From contig NC_088307.1 of NCBI RefSeq assembly GCF_032854445.1, positions 5,642,001-5,706,000 of the forward strand: a stretch of 64,000 bases of DNA. The letters run 5' to 3'. Within the stretch, counting starts at the first letter, position 1; every line of letters begins with the position of its first letter. The stretch comes from Liolophura sinensis (Eukaryota; Mollusca; Polyplacophora; Chitonida; Chitonidae). Positions 22,873 to 41,100 of the stretch are shown piece by piece. Under the pieces are notes generated by a model. The model ran no database searches. It worked only from the letters and a program-made list of their open reading frames with translations, and was not told where the DNA came from. Both the position numbers and the translations under genes were made by a program.

Positions 22873-25800
22873 ATGTCTCAAATGATCCAGACATGGGTGA
22901 ACGATCAACTACACGATATTCTGGGAATATCAGACAAGTACATTGCCCAGTATTTAATCGGGCTAGCGACAAAAGCATCGAGTGCAGATGGCTTCATAGA
23001 AAAGCTGAAGGACACTGGAACAGTAGAAGTTGATGCAAACATGGTTAAATTTGCTCACGAACTTTGGGGAAAGGTTTGTTTGCCTTATGTGGAAACGTTA
23101 TTCCCTCTGTATTACTTAATATACAGCTTTGAATATTATTCTGATGTTTTTTGTTCTCTATATATTTTTTGTCCCTTGTCCCAAAAGGATTAGACAGTTT
23201 GGGAATGACAGGCAGCAGTCCATCCATTTCACACATAAGCATATATTTTGTGGGTTGTTGCACATTTGTAGCTTGCTGTATTCCATACAGGCGTAGCGTA
23301 CGTCATATCCGGAGCAATGGCGTCGGTGTCCAATAATAGAGAAGCAATGTTAAGCAAAATGTTGGAGGTGGTGTGTCAAAAGGTACTGCATGTATTAAGC
23401 TCAGGATTTGCACACATGTAGAGCAGAAAAGCATGAGGGGAGTTTTCCATCATTGTTTTGGTGTGTACCATAAATTACTGAATCCCTGTATAGTGTATTA
23501 GAATCAATGTTAAACAAAATGACAGGGTTGGTACCTTAAAAAGTATTATATGTATGGACCTGAAGTTTTACGTGAATATAAAGCACAAAGACACAAGGGG
23601 GATGTTCCATTGCAGATGCTCTGTGAGCATAATAATTACTGTAAATTACCAAATTCATAATTTCAGTTCTTTATGCATTGAGCGGAAGTTTTGCATTTAT
23701 GTGTCTCATACAGGCGAGCTCTTTGTTAGTCTTGCTACAAATTCTGAGTATTTTGTTTTTATTGTTTTACTGGGTCTGAAGTTCTTCATAGCATGTTATT
23801 CTGATATGATGATCCTCTCTTTTGTGTGATCAGCTCCTCCTACACTAGGCAAGGGAAGCTCCTGATTTTGTAGTACACCTGCACTTTGAGGACGTGCTCT
23901 GCATCTTCACTATTATTCTGTTGATCCTCACAATGTTCTATTTTTAGAAATGAAAATGCTGCTGAATGCTAAACTGTGTTTCTGGTGTACTCCTTAGCAG
24001 AGTATCATCTATACCTTGTGAGAATTCATTTCTTAATTTATCTCTACACCTAGGTGCCCCACAAGCAGGTGTTAGAGAAACCTGCCCGGGCTGCAGAGAG
24101 AGCTGCTATAGAACTAGAGAAGAAAAACCAAAGTTATCGTCTGTTATCTGATGAGGAGGAGGAGGAAGTCAATCCAACACCTGTTAAGGTGAGTCTAGGA
24201 GTCAGGAGTAAAACACTTGTCAAGGTGAGTCCAGTAATCAGGAGCAAAAATCTGACATGGTGAGGCTAGTAGTCAAGAGTAAAAACACTTGTCAAGGTGA
24301 GCTTAGTGGTCAGGAGTAAAACATGTGTTAAGGTGAGCCTAGTAGTCACTAATTATCACCTGTTCAGGTGAGCCTAGTAGTCAGAAGTAAAACACCTGTC
24401 AGGCTAAATCTAGTAGTCAGAAATAAAACACTTGTCAACATAAATCTAGTGATCAGAGGTGAAACACCTGTCAAGGTGAGTCCAGTAGTCAGGAGTAAAA
24501 AAAAAAACTGACAAGGTGAGTCTAGTAGTCAGGAGTAAAACACATGTGAAGGTGAGTTAAAGAAAGAGGAGTAAAACACCTGTCAAAATGAGTCTAATTT
24601 TATGAAGTAAATCAGCTGTCAAGGTGGGTCTGGCAGTCAGAAGTAAACACCTGCCAATATGAGTCTAGTATTCTAGAGTAAATCAGCTGTCAAGGTGGGT
24701 CTGGCAGTCAGAAGTAAACACCTGCCAATATGAGTCTAGTATTCTAGAGTAAATCAGTTGTCAAGGTGAATCCAGTAACCAGGAGTAAAACATCTTATAC
24801 TTTATAATAAGGAGGATAGGTTGTGGACTTAATTGACGAGATTTGTCAGGTACCTGGTGAAGGGTAGTGTTTTACTCTAGGAAGTCCAGTTTTTCCCACC
24901 CATAAAGCCGATCTCAATAGTACAAAATGGAAAAGCTCTGAGATACTATGCTTTTCCACACTTATAAATCAGCAATGGGTAATAAGTTCGTGAAAGATAA
25001 AGGATTTATCTATACATTTGCTTTCCTTGTTGTTGTTTCAGAGATCCAAGCTAGAGAAGAAAAAAAGAAATATTCGCAAGAAGAGAGAATCTAGTTCAGA
25101 GTCTGAGAGTGACAGGTACTGTCAGCAAATTTCAACCTAGCACAACCTGATTCCAAAATCATTTGGTTCTTTTTGAATCACAGCCGACAACATAAACACT
25201 AATTTACTGTAAATCTCATGCTCCCAATATATGGTAACATTGAAAAAAAAAAAAAAAAAGAAATGTTCAACTTTGAAGAAAATATACTCTTACACTTCTT
25301 AGCACCTCTGTACAATAATGGCCAGCTATATAGAAGTTGCTGTCAATGTTTCAGGGATGCTTCGGGTAGCCATGGCAACGCCAACCCTGATGCAGACGAC
25401 AGCATGGACTCTGATTCTTCAGATGCAGACGAGAAAGAGCGAATATCAGATCTGAAGGAGAGGGACCAGTTTGCTGCCAGACTCCGAGATAAGGACAAAG
25501 AGAAGACTCGCCAAGTCATGTCCAAGTCCGACAAAAAAGTGAGGCACTGTTTTCATAATTTTATTGTTCAGCTAAATCAAATGTTCTGTCTGTTATTCCA
25601 TTGAAATTTTGACATCCCACCTTTTAACTTGTTCCTCCTACCTTTTAACATGGGCTTCCTACCTTTTAACATGGGCCTCCTACCATTTAACATGGGCCTT
25701 CTACCTTTTGACATGGGCCTCCCACCTTTTGACATTGGCCTCCTACTTTTGAACTTGGGCCTCCTACCTTGTAATATGGGCCTCCTGCCTTTTGACATGG

Positions 25801-38100: not shown

Positions 38101-41100
38101 GAATCTGGAGAAACCCTTCCCTCTAGAGAACCAGAAAAACCTCTAGGCTTAAAACTTCAACCTGGATTGGGGGCCTCCGTGGCTCAGTCGGTTAGCGCGC
38201 TAGCGCAGCGTAATGACCCAGGAGCCTCTCACCAATGCGGTCGCTGTGAGTTCAAGTCCAGCTCATGCTGGCTTCCTCTCCGGCCGTAAGTGGGAAGGTC
38301 TGTTAGCAACCTGCGGATGGTTGTGGGTTTCCCCCGGGCTCTGCCTGGTTTCCGCCCACCATAATGCTGGCTGCCGTCGTATAAGTGAAATATTCTTGAG
38401 TACGGCGTAAAACACCAATCAAAAAAAAAAAAAAATCAACCCGGATTGAAACACTTTACCTCCAGGAGAAACCCATTAAATTACTTTAATTTACTTTAGC
38501 CAGTAAGACCCATTAGCTTATTTGCCAAGCAAAAATACTGTATTTTCTAACTTGGTGGTTTTTAGTGTTTTGTCCATTGTAGAAAGATGTTTTAAGTTTT
38601 GTTTGGAAGGTGGGATGATCTAATACTGGAAAAATGGTGAGTGAGTGAGTGAGTGAGTGAGTGAGAGTGAGTGCTTAGGGTTTCAAGTTTTCAGTCATAT
38701 CTTGAGTGCTTGGGATTTTAACGTACATAACCATTTTTCAGTCATATGATGACGAAGGAATCCTTAGTGTGTATGTAATGTGCCTTCTTGTTGCAGGACG
38801 AATTTCCACCACTCTTTTATTTAGTGCTGCTTCACCGAGACACCTTACCGAAGGCAAGTAAGTCGCCCCGCCCGAGCCATTATACTGAAATGGGTCAACC
38901 AGTCGTTACACTATCCCTTTAATGCTGAACGCCAAGCTACAACTTCCTCTTTTAAGCTTTTAGGTGTGACTGACCCAGGAATGACCCTGGATCTACCGCC
39001 CCTGAAGTGGACGCTCTACCAACTGAGCCATTAGGGTCCGGTTAAAGAAATGGAGAGTTTCGTCACCAGAAGTGAGATATTGTTCCCCAGGATGTATGTC
39101 ACCAAGCACTATATTTTTTTTTCTAATTCCCTACCTAATTTTGTAATGGATGCCAAATTTCAGGAGGAATTTTCCTACTTTACTGTTTCAGGAACGAACA
39201 AAAAAGCTGGGATCTAAAATAAAAGAGCTGATCATTGCCCCTATTTATGCAAATCTGCCGTCAGAGCTACAGGCCAAGATATTTGACCCCACCCCGCCTG
39301 GGGCAAGGAAGGTAAGAGAAAACAAATATGAAAAAATGGGGATCTGTTGTATGTTGTACTTGGTTGCACTTTATTGTTTTTCACTTTGTGGTTTTGTCAG
39401 CCATCAACATATTTAGCATTTATGTTGTGTTGTACTTGGTGTCACTTTCTGTTTACAGGTTGTGTTCTCTCCTAACGTAACAAACATTTAGCGTTTTTTT
39501 GTGTCAGAAGTGTACTTAGTTTCAACTTAGGTTGCATCATCTATTATTATAGCAAATATTTACCATTTATATTGTCTTTCCTGTTTGCAGGTTGTGCTGG
39601 CCACAAACATCGCTGAGACCTCCCTGACTATTGATGGCATCATCTATGTGATAGACCCTGGTTTCTGTAAACAGAACAGTTACAATGCTAGGACAGGAAT
39701 GGAGTCCCTGGTCGTCACACCAATATCCAGAGTATGTCATTTGTCACAACTCATCCAAAATATTACAATACTCTACATTATATATTATACTGCATGTAAA
39801 TTGTTTATTTGATTTAATTGTTTTATGTGTAAGAGAGCAGAGAGGTTTAAGGATGGAGTCCACCTATAGATTCCTTTTTTAATATCAACAGCATGAAAGC
39901 AGTGCTGTACATTTTAATTTTAATATAGTGTAGATGTTATAAAGTGTCCAGTTTTCTCATGCCATAGTGTTTTGCTCTGGGTGTCATAAGATCTGTAGGA
40001 AGAGCTTTTTTACGAGATTGACCCTGAGGAATATTCAGTTATTCAGCAAATGCATGATATTCATAAGTGCGGCATTCTAAGTAAATTTTGAAATCTTTGA
40101 TATTTATGTATCTTTAAAATTAATGACCAAACAAAATTTTTGTCATGGATTATAAGCCTTCGTTCTAATCAGTGTAACTACTTGTATTGTAGGCATCAGC
40201 CAATCAGCGAGCAGGTAGAGCGGGGCGTGTGGCGGCAGGAAAATGTTTCCGACTGTACACAGCATGGGCGTACAAGAATGAACTGGAGGAAAACACCATA
40301 CCTGAGGTGAGCAGGGGATATAAAACACCATACCTGAGGTGAGCAAGGGATATAAAACAACATACCTGAGGTGAGAAGGGGATGTAAAACACCATACCTG
40401 AGGTGAGCAGGGGATATAAAACACCATACCTGAGGTGCGCAGGGGATATAAACCACAATACTTGAGGTTAGCAGGGGATATAATACACAAAACTTTAGGC
40501 GAGTAGGGGATATAAAACATCATACTTCAGGTGAGGAGGGGATATAAAACGCCATACCTGAGGTGAGCATACCTGAGGTGCGCAGGGGATATAAACCACA
40601 ATACTTGAGGTTAGCAGGGGATATAATACACAAAACTTTAGGCAAGTAGGGGATATAAAACATCATACTTCAGGTGAGGAGGGGATATAAAACGCCATAC
40701 CTGAGGTGAGCAGGGGATATAAACCACAACACTTGAGGTAAGCAGGGGATATAAATCAACATTCCTGAGGTGAGCAGGGGATATGAAACATCATACCTGA
40801 GGTGAGCAGGGGATATAAAACAACATATTTCAGGTGAGCAGGGGAAAATAACACCATACTGAGTTGACCATTGGATGAAAATAGTATCCTACTTCTTGAA
40901 CTTTGAGGTTGGTTTACATGGTGTATTTTCCAGGGTATACATGGAGAGCATTTGTTCACCAAAACATTAAATAATTTAAGAATATTGTTTCACAGACATA
41001 AAATTAAAAAAAAAAAGTTCAAAGTTTAAAGACTCAAAACAGTTCATGTTAAAATCATGTCATATAGGTAAGTCAACTTGTAAATTTATATTAATACATT

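Follow-up and report, generated by a model that had tools for sequence, protein, structure and literature searches.

Minisatellites that straddle splice junctions in DHX16 and other genes of the chiton Liolophura sinensis

In a 64,000-nucleotide stretch of the genome of the chiton Liolophura sinensis (C13:5642001-5706000; hereafter the window), three introns of a gene for a DEAH-box splicing helicase open with minisatellites whose repeat unit straddles the exon-intron junction. We take this gene to be the orthologue of DHX16, a name that is carried over from the first-pass annotation of this DNA. The junction arrays are real and are not confined to DHX16; they are of the kind known from amphioxus as mirages, here found in a new phylum, and what makes them worth pursuing is their rate and their excess at junctions. 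Mirages have been described as a lancelet oddity. In our small chiton sample they occupy roughly 6% of donors and roughly 4% of acceptors, which is common enough for them to be counted and compared across species.

Junction arrays in the DHX16 gene

The genome that we examined comprises 609,464,459 bases in 632 contigs. In the assembly paper, which gives the species as Liolophura japonica, the total is 609,495,693 and the HiFi reads have a mean length of 8.3 kb (PMC11068029); the species name of the published L. japonica assembly was later corrected to L. sinensis (PMC12441733). An amphioxus as host, the group from which mirages were described, was rejected in part on the mitochondrial gene order, nad3-trnS-nad2-cox1-cox2-trnD-atp8-atp6, which is of the molluscan type. 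Within the window, exons 2-21 of DHX16 form a single open frame of 929 amino acids in the gene model when the exon-proximal splice sites are used. Features of the gene are given below with their window positions; repeat units, copy numbers and percent matches are from Tandem Repeats Finder (TRF).

22818..44841 (approximate), plus strand: DHX16 orthologue, DEAH-box splicing helicase, exons 1-22 (2-21 modelled, 1 and 22 by eye)
24054..24188, plus strand: DHX16 exon 2, 3' end ...AACACCTGTTAAG (gene model)
24176..24792, plus strand: minisatellite anchored at the donor of intron 2 (unit 36 bp; 17.1 copies; match 70%)
31145..31260, plus strand: DHX16 exon 11, 3' end ...AAGTTACAG (gene model)
31257..31843 (TRF row 31260-31843), plus strand: minisatellite anchored at the donor of intron 11 (unit 53 bp; 11.0 copies; match 97%)
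40193..40306, plus strand: DHX16 exon 17, 3' end ...ACCATACCTGAG (gene model)
40290..40867, plus strand: minisatellite anchored at the donor of intron 17 (unit 32 bp; 17.7 copies; match 76%)
32501..32720, plus strand: two-copy 109-bp tandem duplication of the exon 12 acceptor and the first exon bases (TRF and sequence)
25615..26096, plus strand: for contrast, minisatellite of intron 4, 76 bases past the donor, with no junction in the unit (TRF and gene model)
34038..35515, plus strand: for contrast, minisatellite of intron 13, with no junction in the unit (TRF and gene model)

The first-pass annotation had described introns 2, 11 and 17 as opening with arrays at the junction, and both TRF and the gene model confirmed this. 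With the junction marked by a slash, the first unit in intron 2 reads AACACCTGTTAAG/gtgagtctag, so that 13 exon bases are followed by gtgagtct; in intron 11 it reads ACAG/gtgagttcatggg, with only about 4 exon bases followed by gtgagttc; and in intron 17 it reads AAAACACCATACCTGAG/gtgagcagggg, with 17 exon bases followed by gtgagcag. By eye, the units of the three arrays are unrelated to one another.

Together the arrays of introns 2, 11 and 17 contain 46 unit copies (17, 11 and 18, respectively), which matches the approximately 46 donor-like sites that had been claimed; however, only 30 sites past the true donors (11, 6 and 13) score ≥3 bits with a donor weight matrix. The ten later copies in intron 11 have one extra base before the donor, and six of them score 6.7 compared with 9.2 for the true donor. 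In introns 2 and 17, certain later copies equal the true donor's score. The junction geometry also does not extend to all arrays in the gene: four longer arrays (at 25615, 30309, 34038 and 36896) are intron-internal, as are several short TRF rows. The duplication at the exon 12 acceptor, the upstream copy of which codes for DEAQ where the exon has DEAH, had been missed by the first-pass annotation.

A 34-bp minisatellite elsewhere in the window (10883-11617) has a minus-strand consensus unit that contains AGGTGAGC. It lies near a possible minus-strand gene recognized by eye at approximately 13800-16100, and it could be another donor array.

Junction arrays in other genes

Our first sample consisted of 8 DEAH helicase and 9 myosin head stretches (168 kb), which were drawn from protein-match lists by exon density with their repeats not yet viewed; the remaining places on those lists were not used. 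Exons were defined by stretch-to-stretch comparison, with 122 exon matches chosen by reading and mobile-element-like matches dropped; since exons were located by protein similarity, an exon broken by an array could go undetected. TRF identified 61 array clusters, which cover 18.8% of the sampled sequence, and 39 arrays passed a filter of period ≥15, copies ≥2.5 and length ≥75 bases. As a replicate, we used five chaperonin (CCT) genes (50 kb, 40 exon matches) with the junction rule fixed beforehand. A sixth chaperonin gene (C1:72038002-72038478), whose repeat had already been seen in search output, was left out of the replicate, and DHX16 was kept out of all chance tests because it had been picked for its arrays. 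In total, the survey covers 22 stretches from three gene families, with 162 exon matches and 48 filtered arrays.

Reading the first sample side by side, we identified junction-spanning arrays at 8 donors and 5 acceptors, and the strict rule recovered 11 of these 13 (6 donors and 5 acceptors). Two arrays counted by eye (L034 at position 758 and L032 at position 3180) were missed by the strict rule, as the exon match was too short or the first copies had diverged. The array in L028 fails the requirement to lie within one unit, as TRF gives a shorter period; reading by eye and the lax rule both include it. The following arrays illustrate the range.

L024: donor array, 66 bp x 25, holding 42 exon bases and running to the stretch end at 1.65 kb
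L034: donor array, 31 bp x 18
L035: donor array, 121 bp x 9
L031: acceptor array, 32 bp x ~43
L037: acceptor array, 95 bp x 3

In the replicate, nine arrays passed the filter, and the rule flagged four, all of them within a single gene (L042) and none in the other four CCT genes. On reading, L042 contains two clear donor arrays and one acceptor array (806-1348), the latter sharing approximately 1 exon base because the exon begins at the array's last base. The array at 1457-2627 in L042 (27-bp unit) was rejected as a junction array because it begins approximately a dozen bases past the exon end; this near miss shows that certain arrays adjoin a junction without including it. In the sixth chaperonin gene (C1:72038002-72038478, minus strand), an exon piece (profile 361-395) occurs in four copies at 109-bp steps, and the search output suggests that this is probably a donor mirage with approximately 105 exon bases.

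Overall, of the 162 donors and 162 acceptors in the 22 stretches, 10 and 6, respectively, carry junction-spanning arrays. The units of the donor arrays are unrelated, measure 25-121 bp, and hold between 4 and 64 exon bases. The arrays are found at 5' and 3' boundaries alike and in several gene families, and thus the earlier focus on donors alone was too narrow. Nor did the suggestion that a gene for a splicing helicase is special find support: arrays are present at 3 of 21 donors and 1 of 21 acceptors in DHX16, which is not shown to be exceptional in comparison with the genes elsewhere (Fisher P 0.17 for donors, 0.27 for donors and acceptors together).

Origin of the arrays

The arrays share three features with mirages: the unit holds an exon end and an intron start, both 5' and 3' boundaries are affected, and the copies carry GT/AG signals. 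We consider it probable that they are mirage-type minisatellites, that is, junction-straddling tandem duplications that were tolerated and that grew further within the intron. A short local tandem duplication would straddle the exon-intron boundary and would then grow via slippage or unequal exchange. With the exon end, the donor and the intron start duplicated together, the first copy would stay on an unchanged exon, so that neither the coding sequence nor the donor nearest the exon would be altered, and every extra copy would fall in the intron; acceptors would be the mirror image. Duplications inside exons would be purged by selection, and the arrays would seem to start exactly at the junction because of this removal. 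Later donor copies would be passengers, drifting with the rest of the unit. That the arrays grew by slippage, that cells splice at the site nearest the exon, and that the copies are neutral are inferences.

In support of mirage-type duplication, the 22 stretches contain 16 further junctions of like geometry, one of which shares approximately 1 exon base. Of the 48 filtered arrays, none spans an exon match or is contained in one, whereas 13.2 would be expected by shifting arrays within their stretches; this is in line with the removal of such arrays by selection on exons. Several points weigh against this explanation. Pure tolerance predicts no excess at junctions over the rest of the intron, yet an excess is seen, and base composition could account for only part of it. 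The location of exons by protein similarity could have hidden exons broken by arrays, and both use of the first donor and change in copy number are presumed.

The size of the excess bears on the alternative that the junction itself seeds duplication through a process linked to transcription or splicing (R-loops, nicks, or the change in composition between exon and intron), with tolerance then keeping the copies. We consider this alternative rather unlikely. The first-pass annotation had proposed that the geometry is more than chance and, as one of two possibilities, that the junction seeds duplication, and two of three null models favor this proposal. When one unit was dropped at random outside exon interiors, 11 of 39 arrays were observed at junctions compared with 2.45 expected (Poisson P 5e-5), and 13 compared with 3.16 once the replicate was added (P 3e-5). 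When whole arrays were shifted circularly within their stretch, with reach into the exon limited to about one unit, 12 of 48 were observed compared with 4.38 expected (P 0.0007). However, the excess is weak under the loosest null, which accepts every array that overlaps an exon edge (11 of 39 compared with 7.1, P 0.075; 13 of 48 compared with 8.4, P 0.055). The replicate is also small: 3 of 9 arrays qualify compared with 0.71 expected (P 0.026), all of them from a single gene, and the count falls to 2 of 9 (P 0.15) without the acceptor array whose last base is the exon start. Moreover, acceptors are affected too, which makes a donor-specific cause unlikely.

The shift tests quoted here use L042 exon matches with both ends corrected. 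With the L042 exon match as found, the test gave 13 of 48 (P 0.0002), or 15 under the lax rule (P 0.014); before one L042 exon start was corrected, it gave 13 of 48 (P 0.0003). Thus, the junction excess is probably between approximately 1.6- and 4-fold, with its size set by the choice of null and P ranging from 0.055 to 3e-5 over the 48 arrays. Base composition may explain part of it; the GC content is 41% in arrays away from junctions, 37% in the background, and 46% in exons.

A genome-wide motif count points in the same direction as junction seeding. Three AGGTRAG motifs at minisatellite spacing were matched 5109 times, compared with 2014, 2055 and 2926 times for three composition-matched motifs; however, these counts are overlapping matches in large arrays rather than loci. 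Within the first 5.3 Mb of C1, by eye and among the matches listed, AGGTRAG occurs in at least 19 places and the control GARGGTA in at least 10. In 3 of the 19 donor-like places, the array starts at the end of a Pfam-matching exon (annexin, 5e-5, just under the curated cut-off; ankyrin, 9e-10; prominin, 6e-9), and in 4 it follows directly on an open frame that has splice sites and poor Pfam support (L012, L014 and L018; L007, E 0.0011). At the other 12, no exon was found at the array start, and certain of these arrays extend upstream beyond the traced sequence. Ahead of the 19 donor-like arrays, a coding score >10 applied to 65% of 52 predicted donors and to 9% of 134 null sites; this score separates poorly, and we therefore relied on Pfam for exon calls. 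Of the 19 listed places with control-motif arrays on C1, 14 fall within the first 9.5 Mb and the remaining 5 farther along, at up to 46 Mb, which may mean that minisatellites concentrate toward the chromosome end.

A further alternative is selection for spare splice sites, through stronger U1 or U2AF binding or as insurance against mutation; the first-pass annotation had suggested that selection might tolerate only arrays that retain a usable donor. The copies that match the true donor's score in introns 2 and 17 are in favor of selection for spare sites. However, later copies across 13 arrays keep the donor GT at 0.83 compared with 0.79 for other dinucleotides (Wilcoxon P 0.22), and retention that is about the same argues against selection on the copies. 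Retention is not uniform, with values of 0.55 compared with 0.94 in intron 11 and 0.33 compared with 0.74 in L026. Among cases that still have GT, later copies beat the true donor's score in 10 of 141, and in L034 (3268), as in intron 11, they score below it. The unit length is not a multiple of 3 in 10 of the 13 arrays and would shift the frame. Use of the second donor copy in intron 2 (24225) would add 12 codons in frame, the only such case in DHX16, whereas reading on past the true donor meets a stop after 1 codon in intron 11 and after 11 codons in intron 17. Based on these results, we consider selection for spare sites improbable.

Introns might also be born from such arrays, as in the Rogers model, in which an AGGT-bearing exon segment is duplicated and gives rise to both splice sites. 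Tandem duplication with AGGT can make introns (PMC4974935), and this origin was proposed for amphioxus mirages (PMC3087553). The arrays in DHX16 introns 2, 11 and 17, however, touch one intron end only, with the acceptor outside the array, and in none of the three do both splice sites come from copies of one segment, which makes this origin very improbable. Coincidence in a repeat-rich gene, or an assembly artefact, is hardly credible: tandem repeats do make up nearly a fifth of the first sample, but the 16 further cases lie in other genes, array copies differ among themselves, and the mean HiFi read (8.3 kb; PMC11068029) exceeds the arrays as far as they were seen (L024 reaches the stretch end at 1.65 kb).

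Parallels in other genomes and further observations

The first report of mirages is reportedly that of Canestro 2002 in NAR, and the primary paper on the minisatellite of human IFI6 is said to be Turri 1995. Amphioxus mirages are exon-intron boundary-spanning tandem repeats that were named in Adh3 and later found in globin genes, PGBD5 and other genes; they occur at 5' and 3' boundaries with many copies carrying AG/GT, and their units measure 10-72 bp in Adh3 and 150-160 bp in globins (PMC3087553, PMC3902484). Reverse-transcription PCR indicated that regular splicing is undisturbed (PMC3087553), and length instability was described (PMC3087553, PMC3902484). Chiton units likewise span 5' and 3' boundaries with copies that carry splice signals; they differ in their host, in that a rate can be given (10 donors and 6 acceptors, out of 162 each), and in reaching approximately 43 copies (L031).

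In human IFI6 (6-16), minisatellite repeats act as several splice donors (PMC4526556). Downstream repeats are used as donors there and give isoforms, whereas most chiton unit lengths (10 of 13) would shift the frame. Intron gain by tandem duplication with splice signals has been described by Rogers 1989, in potato RdRp and in ATP2A1 (PMC4974935). Those duplications carry splice signals, as in the chiton, but the chiton arrays extend, at one end, an intron that is already there, and no new intron is shown. Among the matches listed in open-licence literature, including the accessible portions of further chiton genome papers, we found no report of such arrays in a mollusc or chiton, which is weak evidence of absence.

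A bolder reading, which we consider rather unlikely, is that splice junctions in this mollusc are birth hot spots of tandem duplications, with approximately 1 in 20 of the sampled junctions self-seeded, up to 4 times the positional expectation. If this is true, then the chiton and lancelet cases together would imply that a duplication process tied to junctions arose independently in some animal lineages, making their introns longer and depositing spare splice sites. Chiton mirages offer an easy genome-wide test of junctions as mutational hot spots for tandem duplication, and they also allow testing of how the spliceosome chooses among a dozen donors that are nearly identical. For annotation they are a warning, as copied exon ends can mislead gene prediction.

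Two further DEAH helicase genes, each 40% identical to DHX16, lie approximately 17 kb apart on opposite strands of C10 (22362242-22364098, plus; 22381073-22382941, minus). Their open frames of 1757 and 1579 amino acids are unbroken over the matched 600 amino acids, and they are possibly retrogenes. In the myosin stretch L029 (3055-6393), there are consecutive near-copies of two myosin exons (two of one and three of the other), an arrangement like that of mutually exclusive exons in muscle myosin genes.

An element at 21070-22731 of the window, immediately upstream of DHX16 exon 1, has matching inverted ends and a transposase frame (approximately 21392-22420) that reads uninterrupted by eye; we presume that it belongs to the Tc1/mariner family. 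TRF also identified very long minisatellites in the window, one with a 66-bp unit extending over approximately 4.9 kb (56598-61536) and one with a 67-bp unit running from 62334 to the window end. Elsewhere in the assembly, C99 (108,685 bases) contains seven COX1 matches approximately 15.5 kb apart, which points to mitochondrial genomes joined in a concatemer that may be an artefact of assembly, and another copy is present on C632.

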